A stretch of DNA of 47,415 bases from NCBI GenBank assembly GCA_001735895.1, contig DS021200.1:473324-520738 (forward strand). Reading direction: 5' to 3'. The first letter of the stretch is position 1. Every line of letters begins with the position of its first letter. A model generated the notes under the pieces. The model made no database searches. It saw only the letters and a list, made by a program, of their open reading frames with translations, and was not told the origin of the DNA. Positions 17,579 to 42,594 of the stretch are shown one piece after another. The position numbers and the translations under genes are program-made. This DNA is from Olavius algarvensis Gamma 3 endosymbiont. GTDB taxonomy: Bacteria; Pseudomonadota; Gammaproteobacteria; GCA-001735895.

Positions 17579-19249
17579 ATGAGTATTAAACGAAAAACCA
17601 TACAGGGTGCGCTTCTCGCGGCCGCGTGTATCGGACTGGCTACAACCACGGGGGTATCTTTTGCCGCTAAGAAGAAATTCGAGCCGTTGAACGAGGCTGA
17701 ATTCGAGCAGGCAAAAAGTATGTATTTCCAGCGTTGTGCCGGTTGTCACGGGGTCTTGAGAAAAGGCGCGACGGGCAAGAGGCTGTTGCCGAAGGGCGAT
17801 CCTAAAAAGAAAGCCAAGGGTACGCTCAAGCTGGGCACCAAGCGGCTTGCCAAAATCATCAAGATAGGCACCGAAGGCGGCATGAACAACTTCGACGATA
17901 TCTTCAACGACGAACAAATCGACCTGCTGGCGCGCTACATCCAGATGGAACCGCCGGTTCCGCCGGAAATGTCGCTGGCATTGATGAAACAACGCCACAA
18001 GGTATTTATCGAGCCCAAAGATTATCCGACCAAACCGCTGCACGGCCGCAATTGGGAAAACTTTTTCGTGGTTATCGAACGTGACGCCGGCAAGATCGCG
18101 ATCGTCGACGGCGACAAGCATGAAATCGTCGACCATATCGATACCGGCTACGCGGTACACGTCATCAAAGCGACCGAGCACCATGACCTGGAAAAACCGG
18201 TTGGCGGCGTTCCTGGACGCTTCTGGTACACCCAGGGCCGCGACGGCAAGATGACCAAGATCGACCTCTGGCAAAAGCCCGGCAGCATGCTGGTTGCCGA
18301 AGCGCAAATGGCCTACGACGCACGTGACGTCGCCGTATCCGGCGATGGCAAGTACGTAATCGGCGGCGCTTACTGGCCGCCGCATTTCGTTATCCTCGAC
18401 GCCGTTACCATGGAACCGCTGAAGGTGGTTTCGACTCGCGGTGTCAACGTCGATGGCGACTATGTCAACGAGTCTCGCGTGGCGGCTATCTACACCACTC
18501 CGAAGCAGTCTTCTTTCTGGGTAGCCATGAAGGAACTCGGCCAGATGTGGCAGGTGGATTACACCGATCTCGAAAACCTCAACATCAAGCAGGTCAATTC
18601 AGCCAAGTTCCTGCACGATGGCTTCTTCGACCCGACCGGCCGTTACTTCCAGATCGCCGCGAACGCATCTAACAAGATGGTTATCGTCGATTCCAATACC
18701 GGCAAGCTCGAAGCCATGATCGACACCGCCAAGCTGCCGCATCCGGGACCCGGTGCAAACTGGAACGATGCGCAATGCGGACCGGTAGGCAGCACCACCC
18801 ACCTGGGCGAAGGCAAGGTCACCGTCTGGGGTAACGATCCCAAGGGTCACAAGGCCAACGCGTGGAAGATTTGCTACACCGTCGACACCGATGGCCCGGG
18901 CGTCTTCATCCGCACCCATCCGAAGTCTCAGTACGTATGGGCTGACCAGACCAAGCACCCCGAGCCTTTGGTTCAGCAAAGTGTCAAGGTCATCGACAAG
19001 AAGACGCGTAAAGTTGCCAAAACCATTCGGGTGACCGAGGAAGACGGCAAGGCTGCGGTTCATATCGAGTTCAATGCCGATGGTTCTGAAGTCTGGGTTT
19101 CAGTCTGGAATCGAAAGGACAACAGCAACCCGACCGGTGAAATCGTGGTTTACGACTCCAAGACGCTTAAGGAAATCAAGCGTATCAAGGGTCTGACGAC
19201 TCCGACCGGCAAGTTCAATGTTCACAACCGTACCAATCACGTTACCTGA
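17579..19249 (+). CDS. nirS: Cytochrome cd1 nitrite reductase NirS
   Basis: A 556-residue periplasmic enzyme that reduces nitrite to nitric oxide. It has a signal peptide (residues about 1-30, ending VSFAA). Cytochrome c domain: CAGCH at 53-57 binds heme c. The eight-bladed d1 propeller follows, with the proximal d1 ligand His194 in GYAVH. His346 (KFLHDGF) and His388 (KLPHPGPG) are spaced 42 apart, as the catalytic His pair is in Pseudomonas NirS. Length is as in the family. A clear AGGAG site fixes the start. It is the first gene of the locus, preceded by an FNR-type box and followed by an intrinsic terminator. Confidence 0.97.
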   Translation: MSIKRKTIQGALLAAACIGLATTTGVSFAAKKKFEPLNEAEFEQAKSMYFQRCAGCHGVLRKGATGKRLLPKGDPKKKAKGTLKLGTKRLAKIIKIGTEGGMNNFDDIFNDEQIDLLARYIQMEPPVPPEMSLALMKQRHKVFIEPKDYPTKPLHGRNWENFFVVIERDAGKIAIVDGDKHEIVDHIDTGYAVHVIKATEHHDLEKPVGGVPGRFWYTQGRDGKMTKIDLWQKPGSMLVAEAQMAYDARDVAVSGDGKYVIGGAYWPPHFVILDAVTMEPLKVVSTRGVNVDGDYVNESRVAAIYTTPKQSSFWVAMKELGQMWQVDYTDLENLNIKQVNSAKFLHDGFFDPTGRYFQIAANASNKMVIVDSNTGKLEAMIDTAKLPHPGPGANWNDAQCGPVGSTTHLGEGKVTVWGNDPKGHKANAWKICYTVDTDGPGVFIRTHPKSQYVWADQTKHPEPLVQQSVKVIDKKTRKVAKTIRVTEEDGKAAVHIEFNADGSEVWVSVWNRKDNSNPTGEIVVYDSKTLKEIKRIKGLTTPTGKFNVHNRTNHVT

Positions 19250-26742: not shown

Positions 26743-27686
26743 GTGAGTAAATCAAGTAAATCTAAATTTATAAAACGCCGTCTACCACCATTGAACGCGT
26801 TACGCGCGTTCGAAGCCGCAGGTCGCCTGGAAAGCCTGACCGATGCCGCGACCGAACTGAACGTAACCCCGGCCGCGGTCGGCCACCAGGTCAAGGCGCT
26901 GGAAAGTTATTTCGATCAGGCGCTGTTCGAACGGCGCTACCGCGCGATTGCCCTGACGGAAAAGGGACGCCTGCTGTTAGCGGGAGTGACCGACGGTTTC
27001 GACCGCTTATCCGAGTCGGTCGACGCTTTCGCGGCACTGGAGCAGCAGCGCGCATTGATAATCAGCAGCTGCACTTCCTTTGCGGCCCGTTGGCTGGTGC
27101 CACGCCTGGACGAATTCCGCGCGCTGCACCCGGACATCGACGTGCGCCTCGATGCAACCCAACGGTTGGTCGATCTGCGCCGCGAAGAATTCGATCTCGG
27201 CATCCGCTTCGGGCCGGGACAATGGGGGGCCTCGAAACCGATTACCTGCTGGATGAAGAATTCATCCCGGTGGCAAGCCCGTCGTTGCTCGCGCATAAAC
27301 CGGTTGCTAAACCCGCGGATCTCGCACGGCATACCCTGCTGCACCGCGACGAGTCGCCGGGGCCGCTGCCGCTCGACTGGGCCATGTGGCTGCAGGCGGC
27401 CGAGGTCGATAATGTCGATCCCGAACGCGGGATACGCTACAGCATGGAGAGTATGGCGATCCAGGCTGCCGTCGACGGTCACGGCATCGCACTGGTCAGC
27501 AATGTGCTGGTCGCAGCCGATATCGAAGCGGGCCGGTTGATCAAGCTGTTTGACCTCGGATTACCGGCCGGCCGCGACGTCGCCTATTATCTGGCCTATG
27601 CGCCGCGGCGCCGGCGCCACCCTCGGGTCGCCGCGTTCCGCGCCTGGATTCTGAACGAAGTCAGCCAGTCCACACGGCTCGCGTGA
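26743..27686 (+). pseudogene. LysR/GcvA-type regulator with one-base frameshift
   Basis: Begins at a GTG (26743). The first part has the LysR winged helix (LPPLNALRAFEAAGRLESLTDAA, split as LPPLNALRAFEAA) and effector-domain start (SCTSFAARWLVPRLDEF). At the run of six G (27224-27229) the frame changes. The continuation (LETDYLLDEEFIPVASP to LNEVSQSTRLA) is found one frame away to 27686. Seven G would restore a 314-residue GcvA-like protein. It could be a true pseudogene, a phase-variable tract or a sequencing error. Neighbouring genes show similar lesions. Confidence 0.85.
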
Positions 27687-30010: not shown

Positions 30011-30881
30011 TCAGCAAGCCCGGGCTCGCGACCAGACCCGCGGATACAAATCGGTTCCGGGCCGATCACCGGGTTTGAGGCCATGTTCGGTCATGACGGC
30101 GCTGTGATCCGGATCCATACCGCACTCGCGGAACTCGATGCGCACATCATCGCCCAGCCACTTGGTGGTAAACACCGATAATTCGCGATCCGCGTCCAGT
30201 TTACCCGAGCCACCGTGCATGATACGACTGTTAAAGACCACGCAGTCGCCCGGTTGCATATCCCAACTCACCACACCGAAACTCTCCGGATCGGCGTCGA
30301 TATCGGGGATTGATTGTTCGGCGATTTTCGAGAAATCAACCTGATCGACATCCGTTTTGCCGTCCGGATTCAAAGCGCCGAAATTATATTGATTGAATAC
30401 CGAATCCTGGCGATGCGAACCCGGCACATAGGCCAGCGCGTTTTCCCGCTTAACCGGCACCAACGGCATCCAGATGGTACAGGTGTCAATAGCCGCTTAC
30501 CGACCAGTAGGGTTCGTCCTGATGCCAGGGCGTGGCGAACTGGCTGCCGGCCGAGCGCACAAACACGGCATCGAAGTAAAAATTGATATGGCTGGAGTCC
30601 ATCAGCATACCGGCGATTTGGGAGGCGGGGGAATCAAAGACAAACCGCCGGTATTCCTCTATGCCTAACCATGCCTGACTGTCCCAGAACATGGTGCGCC
30701 CTGTCTCATCCCGGTCCCACACCCTCGAACGATCCGTAGGGCGCCTGCAATTCACCTCCAGCCCTCGTCTCAGCAGCGCAATCCAGTCCGCGTCAAACAT
30801 TCCGGGTATGAGCACCACGCCGTCTCGCTGGTAGCTTGCAATTTCGTTCGCGGTAATCTCGCGAGGAAGGTTGGTGTTCAT
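30011..30881 (-). pseudogene. Phytanoyl-CoA dioxygenase-family protein with frameshift
   Basis: Start ATG at 30881 (MNTNLPREITA). The first frame ends at WSVSGY, and the second continues one base on, through MPLVPVKRENALAYVPGSH. Removing one T from the A/T pair near 30488 joins them into a 289-residue Fe(II)/2-oxoglutarate oxygenase. The HxD motif is in TPWHQDEP, and the distal His in SRIMHGGSG is followed by the oxoglutarate Arg in DREL. The product would hydroxylate an unknown substrate. It could be a real pseudogene or an indel error. Confidence 0.85.
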
Positions 30882-31215
30882 CGTGATATCGCCCAAATAC
30901 TATGATTATCAATGTCGGAAGTAAGCCGCAATGACAGATAATTGTCAAAATTAAGCTTATCGGGGTAAAGGCTAAAATCGACCGACAAAGCGACGCCCTG
31001 TCTTAAAAATCCCTTCTCGAGAAGAAGAACGGTGAAATATTGCGACCCTAAACAATTGGACCGGACCTTGGTTCGACGCGGTCACCAAATACTGCTTCGC
31101 ATACGCGGCCTGGCGGTAGGTAAGGTCAGACTGCTTGTCGCGTTAGGCTGGCGGTCGCGCCAACGATACTCCGATAGCGCGGAATTGAAATTTTATTAAC
31201 CCGAACAACGGGAAG
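30882..31215. other. Gap with a short palindrome
   Basis: Contains no gene. TGACA-GATAAT-TGTCA (30932-30947) is an exact 5-base inverted repeat with 6-base spacer, a possible operator in front of the PhyH gene. The rest is featureless. Confidence 0.4.
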
Positions 31216-31740
31216 CTACTTGCGGCCGCCGCTGAGCACGAAACCCTGGTCGGACTCGAAGCCTACCAGCAAAATCTGCGCTGGATCGATGCTGACCTGT
31301 TGCTCGAGTTGGTGATTGAAGCCCTCGATACGCACGCTATCGTTCATTTTGAGGCTCAGGCGATGCGCTCCGGCTGGGACTTTAGCTTTATGGAAAACGT
31401 CGACGCCGCCGTCACCGAACAGCCCCGGCGGTGGCAGCGAGGCGCTGAAGAAAGGTTCATCGTCGAGCAGGGCTTCGATCGTCACCGGGGAACGTTCGCG
31501 CGGGCAGTCTTCGAGCTTGCGCATGTTTGCCGGCAGTTCATTGAGTTCTTCCTGGCTCAGTCGGCGGCAGGGCTCGCGTAGCTGACCGGCATGGGCGAAA
31601 GCGATGGTTATCACGGCTTCGTCATCGGCGATGATGCGCACCGAGGGCGAGGTCGCGAAGTACCAGACCAGCGCCATGAAGACCGTATAGTTGATTGCCT
31701 GCAACAGAAAACGCAGCGGCTTGTTGTTGAATTCCGTCAT
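31216..31740 (-). CDS. Membrane-anchored periplasmic protein, unknown function
   Basis: A 174-residue protein with one N-terminal membrane helix (FLLQAINYTVFMALVWYFA) and a soluble domain with two close Cys (LREPCRRLS, LEDCPRER). It overlaps the end of the cytochrome b fusion gene by 4 bases and is transcribed with it. It is probably a partner of that complex. No family was recognised. Confidence 0.75.
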   Translation of the reverse strand: MTEFNNKPLRFLLQAINYTVFMALVWYFATSPSVRIIADDEAVITIAFAHAGQLREPCRRLSQEELNELPANMRKLEDCPRERSPVTIEALLDDEPFFSASLPPPGLFGDGGVDVFHKAKVPAGAHRLSLKMNDSVRIEGFNHQLEQQVSIDPAQILLVGFESDQGFVLSGGRK

Positions 31741-33304
31741 CGCTCCGTCCCTGTTACCGCGTCGGCGGCGGACTGGTTGAGCTCGATCAGGTGCCGGCGG
31801 AACTCGGCGAGGTCAGCTTCGACCGAGCGCAGATCGGGTTCGGCCGCGCCGTGGATGCGGATGCGCTCGCGCTCGGCGCGGGCGCGCAGACTCGGTTTGC
31901 GTTCGCCGGCGAAACGCAGGCGCGTCCAGCTATTGCCAAAGCGAAAATAGCAGTCGTTCTGGCGGCAGCCGGTTACCATGACGCCGTCGGCGCCCTGCTT
32001 GAGCGCGTACTCGACCAACGTCGGCGGCAGCATCCCGCTGCAAATCAGGCGCACGCCGCGCGTGTCTGCCCGATTGAGGCGGTCGACGCTCAAACCGTGT
32101 TCGCAGCCGAACACCAGAATTTTTACCTCACCGGACATCGCCGCCACGGTTTCACGCGTCAGGCGGCGCATTTCATCGACCGGCAATTGCGGCATGTCGA
32201 TCCCGGTCTTCAGGGTTTCGCGCGAGGAGCGGAACGGGTTCGACGCCGGGCAAGAACCCGCGCATATCCCGCAGGCGCCGCAGAGCGAGGGGTTGACCAC
32301 CACTTCGTGCTCGTAACGCGCGCCGTCGGTGCGCGCCTGCACGGTGATGGCGTCGAAGGGGCAATCCTCGAAACAAATGCCGTAACCGTTGCAGTTATCA
32401 AGGTCGACCACCGCCTTAGCGCCGTCTTTTTTCGGCAACAGCCACGGCAACGCCATCAACAACAGGGTGATCGCCGTGGTCACGATCCAGACCTGTTGCG
32501 CCGGCCAGATTTCGAGCAACGGGTAAACGTTCAGGTAAAACCAGTCGATATGCAGTACCCGCGGCACGCTGTCGAGGCTCGCCGGCGCGTGACTCAGGGC
32601 CGGCTGATAAATCGACAGTACCAGCAGCGCGAAAAATGTGCCCATGGCGAGACCGCGCGGCGGATTGATGTTGACGTTGGAGAGGCGATAAACGTGCAGC
32701 CACAGCATGAACACCAGGATCAACGGCTGCCCCAACAGATGCAGGAACTCGATCAGGATGAAGAAACGGTCGGTCATCCCGCCGGAGACGAAATTGCGCG
32801 TCATCGCGCCCGAGAATATCGGCAGGGCATCCATCAGCTGCGCCGAACCGACCGCAATGTACTGTGCCAGTTCGTCCCACACCAGCCAGTAACCGGTGAT
32901 GCCGAGAGTGACGATCATCCACAGATTGGGCACGCCGGTGACCCATGAAAACCAGCGGAAACCGCGATAACGGCCCGAGGCGAATTCTTTGAACCCGAGG
33001 CGAATTCTTTGAACATGTGCAGCAGCACGGTCACGACCACGGCATCCGAGGCATAGCGATGCAGGCTACGCATGATGCCGGCCGCATACCACTGCTCGTG
33101 GGTCATGTACTCCACCGACGCGTGCGCGCCTTCGACGCTGCCGTGAAATGGGATAAACAAATAGATGCCGCTGATCAGGATTACCCAGAACAGGAAAAAC
33201 GACAAGGTGCCCAAATGGTATAACGGGTTCCACTCGGTACCGAAGGAAAGATTGAACCATGACTCGAGCGCCAGATAGGCGCGTTTGACCGGATTGACTA
33301 TCAC
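31737..33304 (-). pseudogene. Cytochrome b / ferredoxin / MvhD-like fusion, broken by 20-bp duplication
   Basis: Start GTG at 33304. The first frame (NPVKRAYLALESWFN to HMFKEFASG) shifts at a 20-base tandem duplication at 32974-33013. Removing one copy joins it to GRYRGFRWFSWVTGVPNLWM and the rest, giving about 515 residues. The cytochrome b part (residues 1-225) has bis-His pairs LHRYAS/LLHMF and HLLGQ/WLHVYR. Then come a ferredoxin (CNGYGICFEDCP, where one Cys is Tyr, and CGACGICAGSCP) and a C-terminal MvhD/FrhD-like Fe-S domain (ILVFGCEHG, ICSGMLPP, VTGCRQNDC). It would move electrons between quinol/heme b and Fe-S partners. Confidence 0.85.
32974..33013. repeat. 20-bp tandem duplication in cytochrome b gene
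   Basis: Two perfect contiguous copies of CCCGAGGCGAATTCTTTGAA (32974-32993 and 32994-33013). The length is not a multiple of three, so it causes the frameshift described for the surrounding gene. Confidence 0.97.
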
Positions 33305-33383
33305 CTGATCGTCTTCTCTATGTGAGCTTTGAAAGCTGGATGAAACAGAAATTAGACTTTAACCGAAACCCGCCGCAGGCGAT

Positions 33384-33397
33384 CTGACTAAAGTCAA
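33384..33397. promoter_or_regulatory. Crp/Fnr-type box upstream of cytochrome b fusion
   Basis: CTGAC-TAAA-GTCAA matches the nirS box (TTGAC-AAAA-GTCAA) except for one half-site base and spacer. It lies 80 bases in front of the GTG start. A shared regulator with nirS is likely. Confidence 0.6.
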
Positions 33398-33401
33398 ATG
33401 T

Positions 33402-33425
33402 GCCGCTAGCCGTGCCGCTAGCCGT
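33402..33425. repeat. 12-bp tandem duplication at SCO gene end
   Basis: GCCGCTAGCCGT is present twice in tandem (33402-33413 and 33414-33425), running through the SCO stop codon at 33418-33420. It is a second small duplication in the same region as the 20-bp one. Confidence 0.85.
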
Positions 33426-34218
33426 GCCGCATGCCTCGTACCACGACCGTGCCGCCAATGGCGATGATCGTAGCGCCGATCAACATGCCGAGAAATAGCG
33501 AGTAGTCGAGATAATAACCGTCGCGCTGTGGGTCGTAGGTGGTGCAGAATAGCTTGATGCGATTAACCAGGTTGGCGAGCAGCGGCTGCTCGGGTGGCGA
33601 ACGCCCCAGCACCAGCTCGATCAGCGGATCAACCAGCAGCGGCGTATCGAACACCTGTCCGTAAACCTGGCGGTATACCCTGCCCTCGGCGTCGATAATG
33701 CTGGTCTGGATCAGGTGATCGAAACCGTTCGACGAGGGGTAATACAAAAACCCGAGATCGCGTGACAACGCCTCGATGGTTTGCGCGTCGGCGCTCAGCA
33801 AATGCCAGCCACGGTCGTAAACGCCCTGTTTGCTGGCGAAGAAGCGCATCGCGTCGGGCGTATCCACCGCGCTATCGAAACCGATCAGCGCGACGTTAAA
33901 GCTGTCGACGCCCAGCGCATCGCGTGCTTTTTCCACCATCGAGGCCAGGTGGCGCGTAGTCATCGGGCAAATCTGGTAGCAACTGGTGAAAATCATGGAT
34001 ACCAGCAGCGGTTTGCCGCGCAGTCGATCCAGTCTAACCGGATTGCCGTCGATATCGGTAAACCGGTGCACGCCCACCGAGTTGCCGACCGCCGCCTGAC
34101 TGGTGGCGAGCGCCGTATCGTAGTCGAAGGCCGGCTCCGGGGTTACCGTATAGGCCTGTGCGAGGGGCGACAGCGCCATATGCAGGATGAATCCACATAT
34201 GAGAGTGATATGGCGCAT
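33418..34218 (-). CDS. SCO1/SenC-type copper chaperone
   Basis: A 266-residue protein with a signal peptide (ending LAQA), a thioredoxin-like domain with the copper site TSCYQICP and the distal His in FDHLIQT, and a C-terminal membrane helix (GMLIGATIIAIGGTVVV). SCO proteins load copper into CuA. The gene lies in the leftward cluster behind cyoE and after the CuA subunit II, as in the senC arrangement of NO-reductase (norSY-senC) operons. Confidence 0.9.
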   Translation of the reverse strand: MRHITLICGFILHMALSPLAQAYTVTPEPAFDYDTALATSQAAVGNSVGVHRFTDIDGNPVRLDRLRGKPLLVSMIFTSCYQICPMTTRHLASMVEKARDALGVDSFNVALIGFDSAVDTPDAMRFFASKQGVYDRGWHLLSADAQTIEALSRDLGFLYYPSSNGFDHLIQTSIIDAEGRVYRQVYGQVFDTPLLVDPLIELVLGRSPPEQPLLANLVNRIKLFCTTYDPQRDGYYLDYSLFLGMLIGATIIAIGGTVVVRGMRHG

Positions 34219-34226
34219 TGGTTTAG

Positions 34227-35177
34227 CTACCCGAGCAGCAGAACGTCAAGCACCGCGCAAACCAGCAATAGCACCAGCTGCAGCAGTGAAGCGAAGAAGC
34301 TCTTCATCGCGACCCGGGGAGTCGGGTCCTTGATCATAAGGTAATTGTGGTAAATAAAATAACCCCCACCGCCCGCGGCGCCGGCCAGGTAAATCCAGCT
34401 CATGCCATAGAAAAACGGCAGGATCGAAATGCCGACCAACAGCAGCGTATTGAGCATCACCACCTTGGCACAACGATGGTTGCCGATAATCACCGGCAGC
34501 ATCGGCACGCCGGTTTTGGCGTAATCCTTGTTTTTAGCAATCGCGAGGCTCCAGAAATGCGACGGCGTCCACAGGAACAGCGCCAGCGCCAGCAGGATCG
34601 GCACCGGCCCGAGGCTCGGATCGACCGCGGCCGCGCCGGCGAGCACGGCAAAGCTGCCGGAGGCGCCGCCGATGACGATATTGGTCCAGGAACGGCGCTT
34701 CAACCACACGGTGTAGACGATGGCGTAGAAAAACGCGCCGAGGAAAATGTAAAACGCGGCGGACAGGTTCAGAACCAAGGCCGCAGGTACCACACCCGCC
34801 AACAGCAATAGTCCGATGATGCCGAGCCACAGCGGGCGCTTGCGAAAATATCCGGTGACGAAAGGCCGGGTGCAGGTGCGCGCTACCTCACGGTCGATAT
34901 CGACCTCGTAGTACTGGTTGAAAGCACCGGCGGCGCCGGCCGAAATCAGTACCGCGAAACACAACACCAGCATTTCGAAGCCACCAGGTTGCGGGCCCGG
35001 GGTAACCACCATGGCGACCAGGGCGGTCAGCATCATGATTACGCCGATGCGCAACTTGAGCAGATTGACTAACTGACCGAAAACAGTCTTCAGTCCTCTG
35101 CCCGCGTCCGCTTCGGCGCGAGACAGATCGTAATCCATCCCGCGCCCAGCCGGCATTTTGGCTAACTGAGAGGCCAT
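34227..35177 (-). CDS. cyoE: Protoheme IX farnesyltransferase
   Basis: About 316 residues with about nine helices. The prenyl-diphosphate site is NQYYEVDIDREVARTCTRPF (NxxxDxxxD-type) and the second is KNKDYAKTGVPMLPV. It makes heme O from heme B. The start is uncertain: ATGs at 35177 and 35156 both overlap or abut the subunit I stop (35162), and the ATG at 35138 (MDYDLSRAEAD) is another option. An upstream reading to 35225 is not needed. No ctaA (heme A synthase) was seen here, so the complex may use heme O or B. Confidence 0.9.
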   Translation of the reverse strand: MASQLAKMPAGRGMDYDLSRAEADAGRGLKTVFGQLVNLLKLRIGVIMMLTALVAMVVTPGPQPGGFEMLVLCFAVLISAGAAGAFNQYYEVDIDREVARTCTRPFVTGYFRKRPLWLGIIGLLLLAGVVPAALVLNLSAAFYIFLGAFFYAIVYTVWLKRRSWTNIVIGGASGSFAVLAGAAAVDPSLGPVPILLALALFLWTPSHFWSLAIAKNKDYAKTGVPMLPVIIGNHRCAKVVMLNTLLLVGISILPFFYGMSWIYLAGAAGGGGYFIYHNYLMIKDPTPRVAMKSFFASLLQLVLLLVCAVLDVLLLG

Positions 35178-36895
35178 ACCGAGGCCAGATAATCCCAGTT
35201 GATGAAGTAGTACACGACGAAACATACCAGCAGCGCCAGTGCCAGCACGAAGGTGCCGGGCGCTTCCATGCCGCCGGAGCCATGCTGCTCGACCGCTAGC
35301 TTCGGCGCCATCGGCAAACGCTCGGGTTGGCTGACGTTATAAGACGACGGCGCCAGCGGTACGCCAAAGCCCTGGAACAGGCCGGCGGACTCGTCGAGTT
35401 TCTTGCCGAACAACAGCGAACCCACGGTAACGATCAAGTACATAGCGCCGCCCAGCACGCCGAGCACGCCGCCGACACCGGCGACACCCATCATGGTGTA
35501 AGCCGTGCCCGAATACTCGAAACTAAGCAGCGCGCCGGTGAAGTCCATATCCCAGTGCCGCCGCGATACGCCGAGCGTACCCGCGCCGAGCATGAACAGG
35601 ATCATCAAAGTCATGCCGGCCGAAAACACATAGGGCTGCCACTTGGCCATCCACGGCAAAAACAGCGCGCGCCGGAACAGTACCGGGATCAGCAGGTAGG
35701 TCAACGCCATGAAAGCGAGCGTGGTGCCGACCGCGACGGTGGCGTGGAAGTGCGCCGGGACGTAAATAGTGTTGTGGATGATCAGGTTGATCTGCTCGGT
35801 GCCCATGACCACGCCGGTAATACCGCCGATAAAGCCAAAAATGATCAGCGAGAAGAAAAAGCCTGAAAATACCGGGTTACCCCAGGGCGCCTTGCGCAAC
35901 CATTCGAACATGCCTTTGGTGTAACCCTTGGCGCGTTGCGCGACCTCGACCGAACCCGGCACCGTGAGGCCGTGGATCATGCTCGCCAGTACCGCCAGGT
36001 ACATCGCGTAACTGGTGTTGAACACCTTCCATTCCGAACTGATGCCCGGGTCGACCAGGATGTGGTGCGCGCTCGCCAGCTGCAGGAACAGGATGTAAAG
36101 CAGGAACGCGAAGCGGCTGACTTTTTCCGACATCGGACGGGCGCCGAACAGGACGCCGGCGATCAGATACCAGACCGAAACGTGCGCGGCGACGTTGATT
36201 TGCTGCGACGAGTGTCCGAGGCCCCACCAAATGACGCGGTACATCGCGGCGTCAATATGGCCGATGTAACCGATCGACCACAGGAAGGTCGGCACCAGGA
36301 TAATGGCGCCGGAGGCGATGGTGAAGACCGCGATAATGCAGGCGGTCAGCGCGCCGAAAGTCACCAGCGGGATCGAGCCTTCGTAGGTTTTATCGTCGCG
36401 CGCGATAACCAGGGTTCCGAGGAATACGAAACATCCGATCAGTGCGCCCACGGCGAACAGGATCAGCCCGAGGTAAAAATGCGGAGCCGCCTGCATCGGC
36501 GCATAGGATGTCATCATGACGCTGGAATTACCCTGCAGCACCGCGACGTTGTTCATCACCATGCCGATAATCATCAGCGCGAATCCGAGCCAGGCCCAGC
36601 GCGGCGCGGCCAGGCGTGTGCGCAGCAGCGTCGACGACGCGAAGTAAAGAATTGCCATCTCGAAGAAGATGATCCAGAAAATCAGCGCGTTAATGCCGTG
36701 ACCGGTCAGTACCTGGTAAAACAGGTCGGCCGGCAGCAGGTGCACTTCCTGCCAGCGGGTCAGGATAACCCCGAGGCCGAGGATACCCGCGATCAACAGT
36801 GAAACGGCACCGGCGACCGCATTCGCTTTCATCAGGCTTTCGGCTGACCTGTCAAAATAGAAACCCGAATCCGGGCAAACTCTGAACTGTGCCAT
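35162..36895 (-). CDS. Heme-copper oxidase-family subunit I, likely NO reductase-type (Tyr-less)
   Basis: A 577-residue membrane protein with the ATG at 36895 (GGGGAG before it), one base after the subunit II stop. The six ligand His are present: His66 (low-spin heme), His228 (CuB), His277-His278, His382 and His384. The residue four after His228, which is the active-site Tyr in oxidases (HPEVY), is Gln here (GHSSQQI). An oxygen reductase is therefore unlikely, and a B-family nitric oxide reductase such as sNOR/bNOR is the best guess. Helix count about 12-13. CuA subunit II, CyoE and SCO are encoded alongside. Confidence 0.9.
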   Translation of the reverse strand: MAQFRVCPDSGFYFDRSAESLMKANAVAGAVSLLIAGILGLGVILTRWQEVHLLPADLFYQVLTGHGINALIFWIIFFEMAILYFASSTLLRTRLAAPRWAWLGFALMIIGMVMNNVAVLQGNSSVMMTSYAPMQAAPHFYLGLILFAVGALIGCFVFLGTLVIARDDKTYEGSIPLVTFGALTACIIAVFTIASGAIILVPTFLWSIGYIGHIDAAMYRVIWWGLGHSSQQINVAAHVSVWYLIAGVLFGARPMSEKVSRFAFLLYILFLQLASAHHILVDPGISSEWKVFNTSYAMYLAVLASMIHGLTVPGSVEVAQRAKGYTKGMFEWLRKAPWGNPVFSGFFFSLIIFGFIGGITGVVMGTEQINLIIHNTIYVPAHFHATVAVGTTLAFMALTYLLIPVLFRRALFLPWMAKWQPYVFSAGMTLMILFMLGAGTLGVSRRHWDMDFTGALLSFEYSGTAYTMMGVAGVGGVLGVLGGAMYLIVTVGSLLFGKKLDESAGLFQGFGVPLAPSSYNVSQPERLPMAPKLAVEQHGSGGMEAPGTFVLALALLVCFVVYYFINWDYLASVWPLS

Positions 36896-36896
36896 T

Positions 36897-37457
36897 TTAA
36901 TTCTCCCCCACATAGATTTTGCCGAGCATCAGGTGATGGCCGATGCCGCAGTATTCGTTGCACACCACCGTGAATTCACCCGCCTGATCCGGCGTCACCG
37001 TAAGCACCATTTCATAGCCCGGAATGATTTGCAGGTTGATATTAACCGGTTGGAGCGAAAAGCCGTGATTCCAGTCCATCGAGGACAGGTGCAGGCGGTA
37101 GGACTGATTTTTCTCGAGTTCGAGGATCGGGTACCACTGCCACAGGCGGCCCAACATGTAGACATCGCTGCCGGCGGGTGGTTTGACGACCGGAATGCCC
37201 GCCTCGACCTTCGGGTTGCCCTAGTCGTCGAGCACCTGGAATTGGCTAACCATTTCGTCGACACGCGACTGAAACCTTGCCGGCGTGGTTTGATAAGCCT
37301 CGTTGGACAGGTTCTGTTTTCCGTAGATGTGCCAGTAAGGCATCATGAAAAACATGATCAGGCACCAGACCAGCGCGATTCCGATCCAGAGAACTTCCTC
37401 TTTACCGATCGGCGTATTCCACCAGATCCGTTCCGATGGGGGTAAGAATGAACTCAT
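36897..37457 (-). pseudogene. CuA subunit II (CoxB-like), interrupted by TAG
   Basis: A 186-codon frame, strong AGGAGA site, ATG at 37457. There is an N-terminal membrane helix (EEVLWIGIALVWCLIMFFMM). The CuA site is intact in the second half: VVCNEYCGIGHHLM gives Cys-x3-Cys-x3-His-x2-Met with the extra His in DWNHGF. An in-frame TAG at codon 79 (37223-37221; LDD*GNPKV) separates the parts, where CAG (Gln) would be expected. Without reading through, the copper domain could not be made. Error, suppression or real inactivation are all possible. Confidence 0.88.
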
Positions 37458-37474
37458 GATAGTCTCCTAAAGAG

Positions 37475-37636
37475 TTAAGGGGCCACCGGAATGGTGGCTA
37501 TTTCCATGATGCCCCACAGGATGTAGAACACGGTGGGCATCACGATCCCCAGGAACAGCAGCAGGAAAGGATTTTCGAGCACCCGTTGAAAGAACGGAAT
37601 TCTCTCGGGTGTAGGAATCGGATCTTCTTGTGACAT
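37475..37636 (-). CDS. Small single-helix subunit of heme-copper complex
   Basis: A 53-residue protein starting at the ATG at 37636 behind an AGAGG. It has one C-terminal membrane helix (NPFLLLFLGIVMPTVFYILW), typical of the small helper subunits encoded at the start of ba3-type operons. It is 17 bases upstream of subunit II. Confidence 0.8.
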   Translation of the reverse strand: MSQEDPIPTPERIPFFQRVLENPFLLLFLGIVMPTVFYILWGIMEIATIPVAP

Positions 37637-37944
37637 GGCAAACCTCTTTATTTTAATCAAGCCCGGTTGATCACTGTTGCGGCTTAGCCACTCCGACCAG
37701 CCTGGTCACGGAATGCGTTTGAAAAGCGGCCACAAACGGTGTGGAATTTTTACTACCCGGCAGATTACCCAAGCAAAGGCAAAATTGATTTGATATAAGT
37801 CAAATAGGATTTTCGGGCGGTAACGCCTGCAGGACGCGGTTTGACGCGCTGCTCCTGGAGGTTTGACAATGATCAATTTGCGCGCCAAGCTCACGTGTTA
37901 AGTTGGCGTGCCGACCCACCGAATAGCTTGACTGGAACCTGCCG
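37637..37944. other. Divergent promoter region
   Basis: 308 bases between the leftward heme-copper operon and the rightward hemerythrin gene. An FNR/DNR-type box is listed separately. A small leader-like frame (37869-37902, starting MINLRAKLTC) precedes hemerythrin but is not supported as a gene. Confidence 0.55.
37790..37803. promoter_or_regulatory. FNR/DNR-type box between heme-copper operon and hemerythrin
   Basis: TTGAT-ATAA-GTCAA, with one consensus FNR half-site and the same GTCAA half as the nirS box. It lies 154 bases from the leftward start and 142 from the hemerythrin start, so it could act on either operon. Confidence 0.7.
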
Positions 37945-38430
37945 ATGGCATTGATTGAATGGCGAGACGAATACCGCACCGGAATCGAGGGCGTTGATTT
38001 TGAGCACGAACAGCTCATCAACCAGATTAACTCGATTTACCGGCTGGTCGAAAACCAGGCCGACAAGGATACGGTCATCGACGGCCTCGGTGAAATCTAC
38101 GGCAGTATATCGGCCCATTTCGCGCTCGAGGAACAGATGATGCTGCGCCACGAATATGACCACTACCCGCAGCACCGGGCGGACCACGAACGCCTGCTGG
38201 ACGAAATTCGTGATATCACCGAGGAATTCGAGGCCTCGGTCAAACTGGACCGGGCCGAATTCCAGCATAAGCTGGCGGAATGGTTCCAGCTGCATTTCAA
38301 GACCCACGATTCGCGCCTGCATAACCTCGCCGGCATGCGCTCCCACGAACCGGTGAGCCAGTCTACCCTGAAAACCCTGATTCGAAATGCCAAACAGAAA
38401 TTACTCCATGGACAGAACCGACCCAGTTAG
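37945..38430 (+). CDS. Bacteriohemerythrin
   Basis: A 161-residue protein with the full diiron motif: EGVDFEHEQL (His), AHFALEE (His and Glu), HYPQHRADHE (two His) and LHFKTHDSRL (His and Asp). Bacterial hemerythrins bind oxygen and can bind or scavenge NO. The C-terminus is longer than usual by about 25 residues (VSQSTLKTLIRNAKQK). Its end overlaps the next gene. Confidence 0.9.
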   Translation: MALIEWRDEYRTGIEGVDFEHEQLINQINSIYRLVENQADKDTVIDGLGEIYGSISAHFALEEQMMLRHEYDHYPQHRADHERLLDEIRDITEEFEASVKLDRAEFQHKLAEWFQLHFKTHDSRLHNLAGMRSHEPVSQSTLKTLIRNAKQKLLHGQNRPS

Positions 38431-38914
38431 AAAATTCGTTAAGCTTGCGCTGCTGTTCTGCCTGCTGGTGCCGGCAGTGACCCTGTCGGCCCAGCAAACC
38501 GGCAATGGCGAGAGTCTCTCCGGCTATTACGCGCGTGCGGGCAACAACGCCAGCCCGGCCAAAACCGCCGGCAACAATATCTACATCAAGTTTTTTGAAG
38601 ACCGTTGGGTCGGCATGTTATTCATTCCCTACCCCTACGCGAGCGAAGTCGAAAACGACGTGATCGACCGGGTTTTCAAGGCCGTGAAAAAACAGGCTCC
38701 CCGCGCCGCTATCGTGAGAGGCAAATACGGGTTGTTGAGCGAAGCCGCGACCGCCCAGATCGAAAGATACGGTTACCTGCAGGATCGCATCATTTTCGAA
38801 TGCGGCGCGATGTCACCCTGCACCATCAAACTCGGCAACGACCATCTCGAATTGATCAAACCCGGAGTGATCAACGAGCACATCATCAGGTATGACCATG
38901 TTGCAAACCCCTGA
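38408..38914 (+). CDS. Exported protein of unknown function
   Basis: A 168-residue protein from the ATG at 38408, overlapping the hemerythrin end by 23 bases. It has an N-terminal signal peptide (FVKLALLFCLLVPAVTLSA). Two Cys (FECGAMSPC) may bind metal or form a disulphide. It sits between hemerythrin and SCO, so a copper or heme assembly role is possible. No family recognised. Confidence 0.75.
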   Translation: MDRTDPVRKFVKLALLFCLLVPAVTLSAQQTGNGESLSGYYARAGNNASPAKTAGNNIYIKFFEDRWVGMLFIPYPYASEVENDVIDRVFKAVKKQAPRAAIVRGKYGLLSEAATAQIERYGYLQDRIIFECGAMSPCTIKLGNDHLELIKPGVINEHIIRYDHVANP

Positions 38915-38945: not shown

Positions 38946-39593
38946 ATGAAGAAAAAGCGGATCATACCGGTCGGCAGCCTGGTTATCGGTCTCATCTTCG
39001 GGCTGGTCATGCTGGCCACCCATTTGCTGGTGAAACCGCCCGCGCCGCCGGCCGAACTGGAAGGCGTGCTGCGCCAGGAATTCCGTCCGATCGGCGGCTT
39101 CGAGCTGCAGACCCGGGGCCACGGCCCGATCACCGCGGCCAACCTGCGCGGCAAGTGGAGTTTCATTTTCTTCGGTTACATGTCCTGCCCCGACGTCTGC
39201 CCCAACACGCTGCACGAACTGAATTCGTTCCGCAGCCTGCTGGCGGATGAAACCGGCGCCGAACCGCAGGATATGCAGGTGATTTTCGTCTCGGTCGATC
39301 CCGCGCGCGACAGCACCGAAAACCTCGCCCGCTACGTCAATCATTTTAACCGGAAGTTTATTGGCGCGACTGCGGGCAAGGGCGCGATCGAACGCCTCAC
39401 CAAGCAGTTCGGCGCCGATTATGTGATCGAAGCCGAAACCGCGCCCGGGCAGTACCTGGTGGCCCATACCAGCGCCATTTTCCTGGTCGACCCGGCGGGT
39501 CGGCTGGTGGCCAGCTTTTCGCAGCCGCACTATGCCGCGACCCTATTATCGCAGTATCGTAAAATCACGGCGTATTTTACCGGCAGCGGGTAA
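38946..39593 (+). CDS. SCO1/SenC-type copper chaperone (second)
   Basis: A 215-residue membrane-anchored SCO protein. The N-terminal helix is SLVIGLIFGLVMLATHLLV. The copper-binding motif is FGYMSCPDVCPNT, with the distal His in VAHTSAI, plus the usual VSVDPARD. This is a second, distinct SCO copy, on the opposite strand from the first and adjacent to the second heme-copper-like gene. Confidence 0.9.
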   Translation: MKKKRIIPVGSLVIGLIFGLVMLATHLLVKPPAPPAELEGVLRQEFRPIGGFELQTRGHGPITAANLRGKWSFIFFGYMSCPDVCPNTLHELNSFRSLLADETGAEPQDMQVIFVSVDPARDSTENLARYVNHFNRKFIGATAGKGAIERLTKQFGADYVIEAETAPGQYLVAHTSAIFLVDPAGRLVASFSQPHYAATLLSQYRKITAYFTGSG

Positions 39594-39811: not shown

Positions 39812-41173
39812 ATGCTGTTAAATCAGTTTACGCTACCTGTCCCCGATAGCAATGCCCGTAAGTTGACCACGGGCTGGCTGCTACTCGGCCTCGCCGCGCT
39901 CGTCGTCGGCGGGTTGTTCACCATTTTGGTGTTGCTGGCGCGCACGCCCTATTTTCAGGAAATCATTCCCTGGGTCGACTTTTTCCGCACCGCACTGGTG
40001 GTGCACGTCAACCTCACGGTGCTGGTCTGGTTCCTGGCGTTTACCGGCGTATTCTGGAGCTATACCAGTTCGACCCGCTGCCTGGCCTGCGGCTGGATCG
40101 CGCTGGCGCTGTGCTGCCTCGGCACGCTGGTGATCGTCGTTTCCCCGTTTACCGGAGAAAGTTATCCGCTGATGAACAACTACGTGCCGGTACTGCAAAA
40201 CCCGGTGTTTTTTACCGGCCTGATCGTATTCGGCCTCGGTTTTTGCCTGCTGGTTATCCGCGGCTGCCTGACCGCCTTCGACAGCGACAATCAGACCAGC
40301 GGCGAAACCAGCCTGCGCTTCGGACTGTTTGTCGCGATGGTGGCGTCGCTATTCGCGCTGGGCGCGCTGCTGGCTTCCTATCTCGGCATCGATGCCGGGT
40401 TCGAGGGGCTCGCCTATTTCGACCGCCTGTTCTGGGGCAGCGGCCATATCATCCAGTTCAGTCACACCCAGCTGATGCTGGTCGCCTGGTTGTGGCTGGC
40501 CACGGTAAGCGCCGCCCACTTGCGCATCTCGCCGCGCGCGACCCTGTTTTTATTCATCCTCGGGCTGCAGCCGGTGCTGGCGGCGCCGATAATTTACATC
40601 GTTTTCGAGGTCAGCGCGGGCGACCATCTGTTCTGGTTCATTCAATTGATGAAATACGGCGGCGCCATCGCCGCGGTGCCGATCGGCCTGGCCGTCACCC
40701 TGGCAATCCTCGAAAAATGGCGTCCGGCTCCCGGTTTCGAAGTCGAACGCAACGCCCTGCTGTACTCGATCCTGTTATTCGGGGTCGGCGGCCTGATCGG
40801 TTTCATGATCAGCGGCAGCACCGTCACCGTACCGGCGCATTATCACGGCTCCATCGTCGGCATCACCATCGCCTTCATGGGCATTACCTACCACCTGCTG
40901 CCGCGGCTCGGCTTCGCCCAGGTCAGCGGGCGCGCGGCGCGCTGGCAGCCCGGCATCTACGGCGGCGGCCAGCTGATGCACATCGTCGGGCTGGCCTGGT
41001 CCGGCGGTTATAACGTCGCGCGCAAGTCTACCGAGGTCGAGCGCGGTCTCGAACAGACCCTGGGGTTGGGCCAGATGGGATTCGGCGGACTGGTTTCGAT
41101 CATCGGCGGCATCATGTTCCTGGTACTGGTTTACCTCGCGATGAAACGCGGCAACCGGGCTGCCGCGTCTTAA
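39812..41173 (+). CDS. Divergent heme-copper oxidase-like subunit I
   Basis: A 453-residue, about 12-helix protein with heme-copper-like signatures: His65 (ALVVHVNLTVLVWFL), His212 in FWGSGHIIQFSHTQ, and the HYH pair His343/345 (VPAHYHGS). The residue at the Tyr position after His212 is Phe216, and the His-His pair that normally completes CuB is absent (only His272 in SAGDHLFW). This rules out a normal oxidase. It is probably an NO reductase-like or otherwise specialised member. A SCO gene lies just upstream. The family subtype cannot be settled by eye. Confidence 0.8.
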   Translation: MLLNQFTLPVPDSNARKLTTGWLLLGLAALVVGGLFTILVLLARTPYFQEIIPWVDFFRTALVVHVNLTVLVWFLAFTGVFWSYTSSTRCLACGWIALALCCLGTLVIVVSPFTGESYPLMNNYVPVLQNPVFFTGLIVFGLGFCLLVIRGCLTAFDSDNQTSGETSLRFGLFVAMVASLFALGALLASYLGIDAGFEGLAYFDRLFWGSGHIIQFSHTQLMLVAWLWLATVSAAHLRISPRATLFLFILGLQPVLAAPIIYIVFEVSAGDHLFWFIQLMKYGGAIAAVPIGLAVTLAILEKWRPAPGFEVERNALLYSILLFGVGGLIGFMISGSTVTVPAHYHGSIVGITIAFMGITYHLLPRLGFAQVSGRAARWQPGIYGGGQLMHIVGLAWSGGYNVARKSTEVERGLEQTLGLGQMGFGGLVSIIGGIMFLVLVYLAMKRGNRAAAS

Positions 41174-41220: not shown

Positions 41221-41357
41221 CTCGTCATCCTGGCGTTTTCTTCGTCATCCTGGCGTTTTCTTCGTCATCCCGGAGTTTTCTTCGTCATCCCGGAGTTTCC
41301 TTCGTCATCCCGGAGTTTCCTTCGTCATCCCCGCGCTTTCTTCGTCATCCCCGCGTA
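41221..41357. repeat. 20-bp tandem repeat array (about 7 units)
   Basis: Seven units begin about every 20 bases (CGTCATCC at 41223, 41243, 41263, 41283, 41303, 41323 and 41343), for example TTCGTCATCCCGGAGTTTTC. Variants are CTGGCG, CCGGAG and CCCGCG. The last unit is split by the IS insertion. No spacers, so this is not a CRISPR. Confidence 0.9.
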
Positions 41358-41360
41358 AGC

Positions 41361-42594
41361 GCACTGCTGTCCGGAATAAATCATAATGCCAACTGTGCTT
41401 GATGTATTTGGAAATCGGATTTCCATTTTCGTCGTCGTTTAAGTACTTCGAATTCGAGTCTGGGTCGCTGGAATAGAGTCGATTTGAGTTCCGCCAGCCA
41501 CAGATAAAAACCGCGTCTCGATCCACAAAGTTGCCGGTATAGATCGGCGATGAGATACGTGATCAATGCCACCAGTATCTGGATTTTGACCGCATTCTCG
41601 CTTTGACCGAGAAACTTTTTGATTTTCAGGTTCTGCTTGACCCACTTGAACCAGAGTTCGATCGCCCAACGCTGCTTGTACAGCGCTGCAACTTCTTCAA
41701 CCGGGACCCCCATCAGGTTGGTTACCAGTACCAGCGGGTCCACATGATCCTCTCGATGCACCACTATTCGCCGCAACGGTTTGACGTAGTTGTTTTTCCG
41801 GCCGCCGCCAGGCCATTTGTTTTTAAACTCAATGACCTCATCCGACAGTATATCTCCTTCGGTCGAGCGGCTTTTGAGCACCCTGATCGATGCGTTACGC
41901 TTTAACCGGGTCACAAAGAAAGCACCCTCCTGGTCGATTTGATGCCACCAATTGTAATCGCAATATCCCTTATAATATCGTCTGGGTCGATGCCGTGATC
42001 CGAGCGTCACAAGGCAACTGCTGTCGGGGGGAATACAGCAGGTGAATCTTCAGGCCCGGAATGCGTGACATACTACGCGCTTGCGTCCACTCATAACCCC
42101 GGCCGCGCAGACAGATCGGCGTCGAGTCCAACAGATAGAGCAAGTCCTTTATCTCATTGCGTACTCGCCGATGAGCCCGGCCCATCAGCTGCTGGCAGAA
42201 TGATTCAAATACCCCGGCATCTCGTTGGCGATTGGCATCCGATAAAGTCGAGCGCTTAATCGGACCGCAGCCCAGGTGATAGTGATGCGCGGAATGACTA
42301 TTGTAGCTCACCTCCAACTCGCGCAAGCTCCGACAACCGGACAATTGAGCATACATCAGACTGATTAACTGCCCCCAGCTGTCGAAACCCTTGTTATGTT
42401 TATCGCTCCGATGCTGTTCAACGCAGCGTTTGAAAGTATTTTTAGGAAGGACTTTCAAAAGTTCGCCAAATCGGGTATTTGTATACATGTTGCAGTGTCC
42501 TGAAATTAAGTTGTCGCTTATGGTTTTATTCGTAAAACCCGGGCACTGCAACACTTTCAAATACACCAACTTAATTTATTCCGGACAGCAGTGC
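41361..42594 (-). mobile_element. Decayed IS4-family insertion element
   Basis: About 1234 bases bounded by terminal inverted repeats beginning GCACTGCTGTCCGGAATAAA. The likely target duplication GCGTAAGC lies at 41353-41360 and 42595-42602. It has split a 20-bp repeat unit downstream of the sirtuin gene and carries a frameshifted transposase on the minus strand. Confidence 0.88.
41381..42488 (-). pseudogene. IS4-family transposase, frameshifted
   Basis: The N-terminal half (ATG at 42488: MYTNTRFGELLKVLP, HHYHLGCGPIKRSTLSDAN, LLDSTPICL) and the C-terminal half (KGYCDYNWWHQIDQEGAFF, YKQRWAIELWFKWVKQNLKI) are in different frames. They break at the run of six G/C at 42026-42031. The first Asp and the Y-R-E-K region are visible. 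The sequence around the second catalytic Asp looks shortened (PRRYYKGY) and probably lacks it. So the element is unlikely to move by itself. Confidence 0.85.

Follow-up and report, generated by a model that had tools for sequence, protein, structure and literature searches.

A putative eNOR-type nitric oxide reductase operon and a putatively CuB-less heme-copper oxidase homologue in the Olavius algarvensis Gamma 3 endosymbiont

How might a bacterium that encodes a cytochrome cd1 dispose of the nitric oxide (NO) that such a protein would make? The question is raised by a 47,415-nucleotide stretch of DNA, here called the window, from the Olavius algarvensis Gamma 3 endosymbiont (assembly GCA_001735895.1, contig DS021200.1, positions 473,324 to 520,738). 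A minus-strand operon (31216-37636) encodes a heme-copper complex, and a divergent operon beside it carries a second homologue of the catalytic subunit, termed HCO2. Read from its sequence, the first operon very probably specifies an NO reductase of the eNOR type together with assembly factors, and HCO2 is most likely a heme- or NO-handling accessory without CuB.

Is subunit I that of an NO reductase or of an oxygen reductase? All six histidine ligands claimed by the initial annotation are present in the alignment (His72, His234, His283, His284, His388 and His390), and the segment GHSSQQI aligns with GHP-x-x-YF of ba3-type oxidases of solved structure. The residue four after the CuB ligand His234 of helix VI, a Tyr in ba3 oxidases, is Gln238, as that annotation had also noted, and Gln237 at +3 is likewise Gln. 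Glutamine at both +3 and +4, with the HH pair, is found in 92 of 92 distinct eNOR sequences, so that chance is not an issue for the motif; the sequences were picked by similarity to the window protein, and since one of the two scan patterns behind the 80 loci described below included the +3 Gln, only the +4 Gln is free of selection bias. In PMC8756737, Table A4 assigns Tyr to O2 reductases, Glu to cNOR and qNOR, Asn to sNOR and CuANOR (bNOR), Asp to gNOR and Gln to eNOR; that paper also lists the eNOR family with one proton channel and names the Alpha-, Beta-, Gamma- and Deltaproteobacteria as groups with putative eNOR genes. PMC11388526 describes eNOR as biochemically characterised, citing Murali et al. 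2024, and reports bNOR from Bacillota only. The eNOR described here belongs to an already named family. Accounts of that family are reportedly given in Hemp & Gennis 2008, and of the R. marinus enzyme in Murali et al. 2024.

The tree points in the same direction. Among 54 proteins, a set that stops short of the R. marinus eNOR and of verified sNOR and bNOR sequences, the window subunit I joins Gln-bearing homologues from Defluviimonas, Thermus and Thermomicrobium (support 91/98), and six Tyr-bearing B-type (ba3-type) proteins form a separate clade (100/97). Subunit I is thus placed apart from the ba3 oxygen reductases, the grouping that had been named beforehand as the one to speak against an NO reductase, and a ba3 oxidase with a relocated Tyr is ruled out by the tree. 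An AlphaFold2 model of subunit I (pLDDT 76) has ba3-type oxidases as its closest folds. The ratio of nonsynonymous to synonymous substitution rates (dN/dS) of subunit I is 0.03-0.09 in ten pairs from five genomes, a sign of purifying selection. Along the putative K-channel path of ba3 oxidases, as placed on subunit I, Tyr249 and Ser311 occur in 92 of 92 eNORs and Thr317 in 89, and His314 stands where two ba3-type rows carry Thr; the polar residues of this path agree with a family for which one channel is listed. These findings are best read as those of a B-type NO reductase that has no Tyr and is linked to CuA, of the type eNOR. In its general form this was the proposal of the initial annotation, and it is upheld by the position outside the Tyr-bearing B-type clade, by the finding of no other heme-copper-type NO reductase in the 87%-complete genome and by the association of eNOR with d1-type genes among class genomes, described below.

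The operon reads on the minus strand from 37636 to 31216, in the following order.
37475..37636, minus strand: subunit IIa, a 53-residue single-helix peptide of B-type oxidases, with a homologue in 77 of 80 eNOR loci
36897..37457, minus strand: putative eNOR subunit II, a CuA cupredoxin interrupted by a TAG codon, with the COX2 domain in its 3' half
35162..36898, minus strand: putative eNOR subunit I (Pfam COX1, E 5.8e-62; ligand tally, tree and AlphaFold2 model)
34227..35225, minus strand: CyoE, heme O synthase (TIGR01473, above cut-off)
33418..34218, minus strand: SCO/SenC-type copper chaperone (PF02630)
31737..33304, minus strand: fusion of a b6-like cytochrome b, two 4Fe-4S domains and FlpD, frameshifted (PF00033, Fer4, PF02662)
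32974..33014, no strand: perfect 20-bp tandem duplication within the cytochrome b gene, without counterpart in three same-genus copies
31216..31740, minus strand: p174, a conserved 174-residue protein with no Pfam match, matched in 54 of 80 loci

The CyoE and SCO genes said to lie behind subunit I are thus both there. With eNOR as described, the complex shares a B-type subunit I with six His, Gln at the Tyr position, and an upstream gene for a cupredoxin subunit II, and its residues agree with the one proton channel listed for the family; it differs in that the operon adds CyoE, SCO, the cytochrome b/4Fe-4S/FlpD fusion and p174, that HCO2 is nearby and that subunit II is interrupted. How constant is this arrangement? 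The eNOR profile was used to fetch 80 loci, the best 80 of 563 relatives; almost all of their record titles are proteobacterial. Subunit II was found in 78 of them, IIa in 77, SCO in 68, cytochrome b/FlpD in 60, CyoE in 55 and p174 in 54, counts that are affected by the many loci ending at contig edges and by weak homologues that may have been missed. The eNOR homologues on Thermus thermophilus plasmids and in Thermomicrobium roseum (L026, L190 and L027; 44-48% identity over the matched part) have the GH-x-x-QQ motif and the IIa- and II-type genes upstream, but differ in having no HCO2; the plasmid collection gave two HCO2 matches, and both were eNOR genes. The two Thermus homologues (L190, 4983-6668; L026, 5983-7665) have GHFK in helix X, with Lys at the second His, which would be expected to bind the low-spin heme. 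A Defluviimonas plasmid has the eNOR operon and a hemerythrin gene, with no HCO2 found within 8 kb of the eNOR. In L092, L095, L099, L103 and similar eNOR loci with betaproteobacterial titles, HCO2 is followed by another match of the cytochrome b/4Fe-4S/FlpD type.

Is the complex whole in this genome? The subunit II gene adjoins subunit I upstream and encodes the complete CuA motif claimed at first, a histidine and C-x3-C-x3-H-x2-M, but it is not open: it starts at 37457 and meets an in-frame TAG at 37221-37223, ahead of the CuA half. With this stop the complex cannot be called complete here. The TAG lies inside a 21-nt insertion, in a linker of variable length, that is not in the three relatives aligned, and the gene is intact in the three relatives translated. 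Past the stop the reading frame has a dN/dS of 0.060 and 0.045 against two relatives. In the cytochrome b/4Fe-4S/FlpD gene, which is a single 526-residue open frame on the Defluviimonas plasmid, the 20-bp duplication shifts the frame. The strong constraint past the stop suggests that the lesions in the two genes are very recent or are assembly errors. Relatives are also broken, with stop codons in the subunit I matches of two genomes (G020 and G021). Elsewhere in the window a LysR-like regulator gene (26743-27686) and a dioxygenase-like gene (30011-30896), both named by eye, each seem split into two frames, which may reflect assembly errors or gene decay.

What, then, is HCO2? It is encoded in the divergent operon, with the following genes.
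37945..38430, plus strand: bacteriohemerythrin, gene 1 of the operon (NF033749, above cut-off)
38387..38914, plus strand: p175, no Pfam match, position conserved across same-genus loci
38946..39593, plus strand: second SCO/SenC protein (PF02630, E 1.3e-34)
39812..41173, plus strand: HCO2, second COX1 homologue, 453 residues (Pfam, E 3.5e-14; alignments, AlphaFold2 model and Foldseek)

HCO2 has no NCBIfam match at E 0.01. Its AlphaFold2 model (pLDDT 88, pTM 0.90) has 12 long helices, and the top Foldseek match is the ba3 oxidase 3s8f (TMq 0.70). His65 in helix II, His212 in helix VI and His343 and His345 in helix X are in place; at the helix VII CuB pair there are Ile261 and Tyr262. Among 80 distinct sequences the helix II His, the helix VI His, the Gln at +3 from it (Gln215) and both helix X His are invariant, and the helix VII pair is complete in none. 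Its first position is Ile, Ala, Leu, Val, Thr or Phe, and its second is Tyr in 75 sequences, Leu in three, His in one and Ser in one; at +4 Phe is found in 77 and Tyr in three. The helix VII columns depend on the alignment, and helix VII of the window protein (241-264) holds no histidine whatever. Another set of 93 rows has His212, His343 and His345 throughout and His65 in 92 (Tyr in L180). His272 is present in 52 of 57 sequences from eNOR loci, as against 22 of 37 others, a count that includes a CtaA-like protein of L183 left out of the 93. Frames broken by stop codons, two of HCO2 and two of eNOR, were dropped from the alignments, as were identical sequences. In the tree all HCO2 proteins form a single clade (100/100), which a long branch connects with eNOR (100/98), and the dN/dS of HCO2 is 0.09-0.22 (ten pairs, five genomes), a sign of constraint. 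With the heme-copper oxidase superfamily HCO2 shares the 12-helix fold and the His ligands of both hemes, but it does not have the three CuB His. HCO2 thus appears to have lost the site that gives the superfamily its name.

Does HCO2 go with eNOR? In the window's genus it is found in 21 of 22 genomes with eNOR and in none of nine without (partial matches included), and it is part of the divergent operon there; in the window it lies 2.9 kb from subunit I. Where eNOR loci extend at least 8 kb to each side, HCO2 is present in 30 of 35, downstream on the same strand in 22 of the 30, at a median distance of 4.1 kb. A class sample of 369 genomes has both genes in 28 (4.2 expected), eNOR only in six and HCO2 only in 18 (Fisher 3e-24); the Fisher tests on class genomes ignore kinship. 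Thresholds were set by eye at 350 bits for eNOR, 190 bits for HCO2 and E < 1e-60 for d1, and as the first pass scored only three to five candidates per genome, absences are soft. The eNOR count leaves out G380 (145 bits) and G394 (227 bits), the latter with a Tyr motif, and the HCO2 count leaves out G179, G201, G262 and G267, whose matches are only weak. The 18 HCO2 genomes without a counted eNOR include a group of COX1 matches of about 250-270 bits. Two of these were checked: L241 is a NorB, matching the cNOR NorB of P. aeruginosa at E 2.9e-220, and L242 is without the cNOR motif looked for.

Eighteen HCO2 loci were read, that of G191 and 17 others whose genomes have no counted eNOR, with part of the neighbours compared with Pfam or NCBIfam; in L182 and L183 the HCO2 frame itself was not picked. 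coxA lies within the stretch in six (L169, L172, L173, L174, L175 and L181) and ctaA in three further loci (L176, L183 and L184), of which L183 also has cyoE. Another, L171, with p174, p175, SCO and cd1 genes, is an eNOR-type cluster ended by a contig edge. No oxidase gene was recognised among the neighbours compared in the remaining eight.

Where would NO come from, and are there other reductases for it? The candidate source is also in the window.
17579..19249, plus strand: cytochrome cd1 (NirS), in which Val replaces His327 and His369 is kept (PDB match 1bl9, E 1.5e-125; residue check)

The initial annotation had taken this protein for the maker of NO. It is NirS by similarity, but Val stands in place of the catalytic His327 of P. 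aeruginosa, which weakens the claim and makes the NO source uncertain. In nine further proteins the position is Val in four, Ile in one, His in three and unaligned in one (G102), and one Thermus thermophilus NirS, encoded near an eNOR, has Val too. A strong d1-type match is present in 31 of 34 eNOR genomes, compared with 74 of the 369 overall (Fisher 2e-21), and in 37 of 46 HCO2 genomes; the d1 model also matches NirF- and NirN-type proteins. For the step after NO, a different contig of the genome has a nosZ-type propeller match in a 779-residue frame.

norB is missing from the window, as noted at the outset, when norBC elsewhere in the genome, together with oxygen-reductase activity, was named as a finding that would tell against an NO reductase. 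A PF00115 search of the whole 87%-complete genome gave two matches only, eNOR and HCO2; both lie in the window, and neither resembles NorB. In other genomes, such as L241, this model does pick up NorB, but no sequence of the cNOR or qNOR kind, with Glu at the active site, was found in this assembly. In this assembly no aa3, cbb3 or cydA/bd oxidase genes were found. Within the genus, full aa3-like matches occur in 20 of 31 genomes and full CcoN-like matches in 21 of 31, judged by score and length, with two CcoN-like matches and one aa3-type fragment checked for motifs; eNOR as the only terminal reductase of the genus is thereby ruled out. Since oxidases that are usual in the genus are absent from the assembly, the missing norB could be a gap too, and these absences are provisional.

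A scheme can be proposed. CuA would be reduced by a small donor protein, either c-type or copper, and would pass the electrons to the low-spin heme and on to the high-spin heme/CuB site, where two NO would be converted to nitrous oxide (N2O). In eNOR, without a Tyr radical donor, O2 reduction would be disfavoured. The cd1 protein would supply the NO, and the N2O formed would be passed to the NosZ-type protein whose gene is on another contig. HCO2 would most likely bind two hemes without CuB and serve eNOR as an accessory for cofactor delivery, or in NO binding or sensing, with the same accessory role for aa3 oxidase in other genomes. In the endosymbiont the complex would work only if the insertions are assembly errors, are very recent or are bypassed.

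Several observations weigh against this picture. The biochemically characterised R. marinus eNOR is not among the proteins of the tree, the assembly has lesions in the genes of both subunit II and cytochrome b, and NirS is without one of its two catalytic His. A strong d1 match is missing from three of the 34 eNOR genomes. The aa3-like and CcoN-like matches usual in about two-thirds of the genus have no counterpart here. As to HCO2, 18 of 46 genomes that have it are without a counted eNOR, and none was found near the Defluviimonas eNOR; HCO2 is thus not an obligate part of eNOR, nor specific to it.

Could the complex be something else? The sNOR or bNOR assignment first proposed has in its favour the CuA subunit and the SCO and CyoE genes, a likeness to the norSY-senC-type clusters of ammonia oxidisers. 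It fails at the diagnostic residue, Asn for both in PMC8756737 and Gln here in 92 of 92; moreover, bNOR is reported by PMC11388526 from Bacillota only, and the nearest loci are titled Gammaproteobacteria. This assignment is highly improbable. A ba3-type oxygen reductase with a substitute for Tyr, or an enzyme serving O2 and NO alike, is improbable too, if less so. It would agree with the nearest solved folds, with the fold, the ligands and the subunits IIa, II and I shared with the T. thermophilus oxidase (1ehk, 7deg), and with the lack of an aa3, cbb3 or bd oxidase in the assembly. The cross-link Tyr four after the CuB His is, however, not present in subunit I, which rules out an ordinary ba3 oxygen reductase; the six Tyr-type B proteins keep to their own clade, oxidase-like matches occur in about two-thirds of the genus, and eNOR tracks d1 genes. 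A more serious contender, if short of an even chance, is that the eNOR genes are a recent pseudogene set and do not provide the NO reducer of this organism. The TAG in subunit II and the frameshift in cytochrome b, each through an insertion, would fit, as would the oxidase genes not found. On the other side are the conserved frame past the stop, the open state of the remaining operon genes, and the split-looking genes and the stops in relatives, which show that assemblies carry breaks. The operon is still best read as coding for an NO reductase of the eNOR type and the factors that assemble it.

The role of HCO2 is harder to fix. That it is a terminal reductase itself, with an unusual metal site made of His212, Gln215, Tyr262 and perhaps His272, is rather unlikely. 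The invariance of the first two residues, the Tyr in 75 of 80, the enrichment of His272 at eNOR loci and the d1-type genes in HCO2 genomes, even in 10 of the 18 without eNOR, would suit such a role, but one of the three CuB His is left, and outside the aa3 operons no subunit II-type gene was recognised beside HCO2 in the 18 loci. Alternatively, HCO2 may be an assembly factor that holds hemes or passes them to subunit I of eNOR or aa3 oxidase, which is quite possible though somewhat less than an even bet. At eNOR loci its neighbours include cyoE and SCO genes, and in nine of the 18 loci coxA or ctaA is close by, along with more assembly genes; yet six of 34 eNOR genomes have no counted HCO2, about half of the 18 loci have no recognised oxidase gene nearby, and HCO2 tracks d1 genes as well as oxidases. 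What assembly and catalysis leave over might be NO binding, sensing or another function. The loss of two CuB ligands with the heme ligands kept, the single clade, the constraint, and neighbours for heme O or heme A and for copper loading fit a two-heme, CuB-less protein of assembly or NO handling. By a small margin of belief, HCO2 is taken to be a CuB-less branch of the heme-copper oxidases: a membrane protein with two hemes and all heme ligands kept, which has a common ancestor with eNOR and may be a heme- or NO-handling partner of NO reductases and aa3 oxidases.

Has this been seen before? Neither a CuB-less homologue nor an eNOR operon like the present one was found described in the literature searched, which did not include Murali et al. 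2024; relative to that literature, an eNOR cluster with a CuB-less homologue and a redox module would be new. HCO2 may already have a name, as reference gNOR and nNOR sequences were outside the comparison. Plasmid records label eNOR as a cytochrome c oxidase ('cbb3-type' or 'b(o/a)3-type' subunit I), and under such labels denitrifiers with eNOR look incomplete in gene surveys; the Gln-Gln motif and the operon architecture offer a simple way of finding them. If HCO2 is truly a copper-free relative of the heme-copper oxidases, it would be a natural experiment on the purpose of CuB, and perhaps a way to study heme insertion into NO reductases and aa3 oxidases, or the protection of these enzymes from NO.

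Two repeats in the window may be added. Between HCO2 and transposase-like frames at 41381-42569 there are 6.8 copies of a 20-bp repeat (41222-41356), and at 16626-16897 repeat units of 84 bp lie within a long coding frame whose translation abounds in Ala, Pro and Lys.

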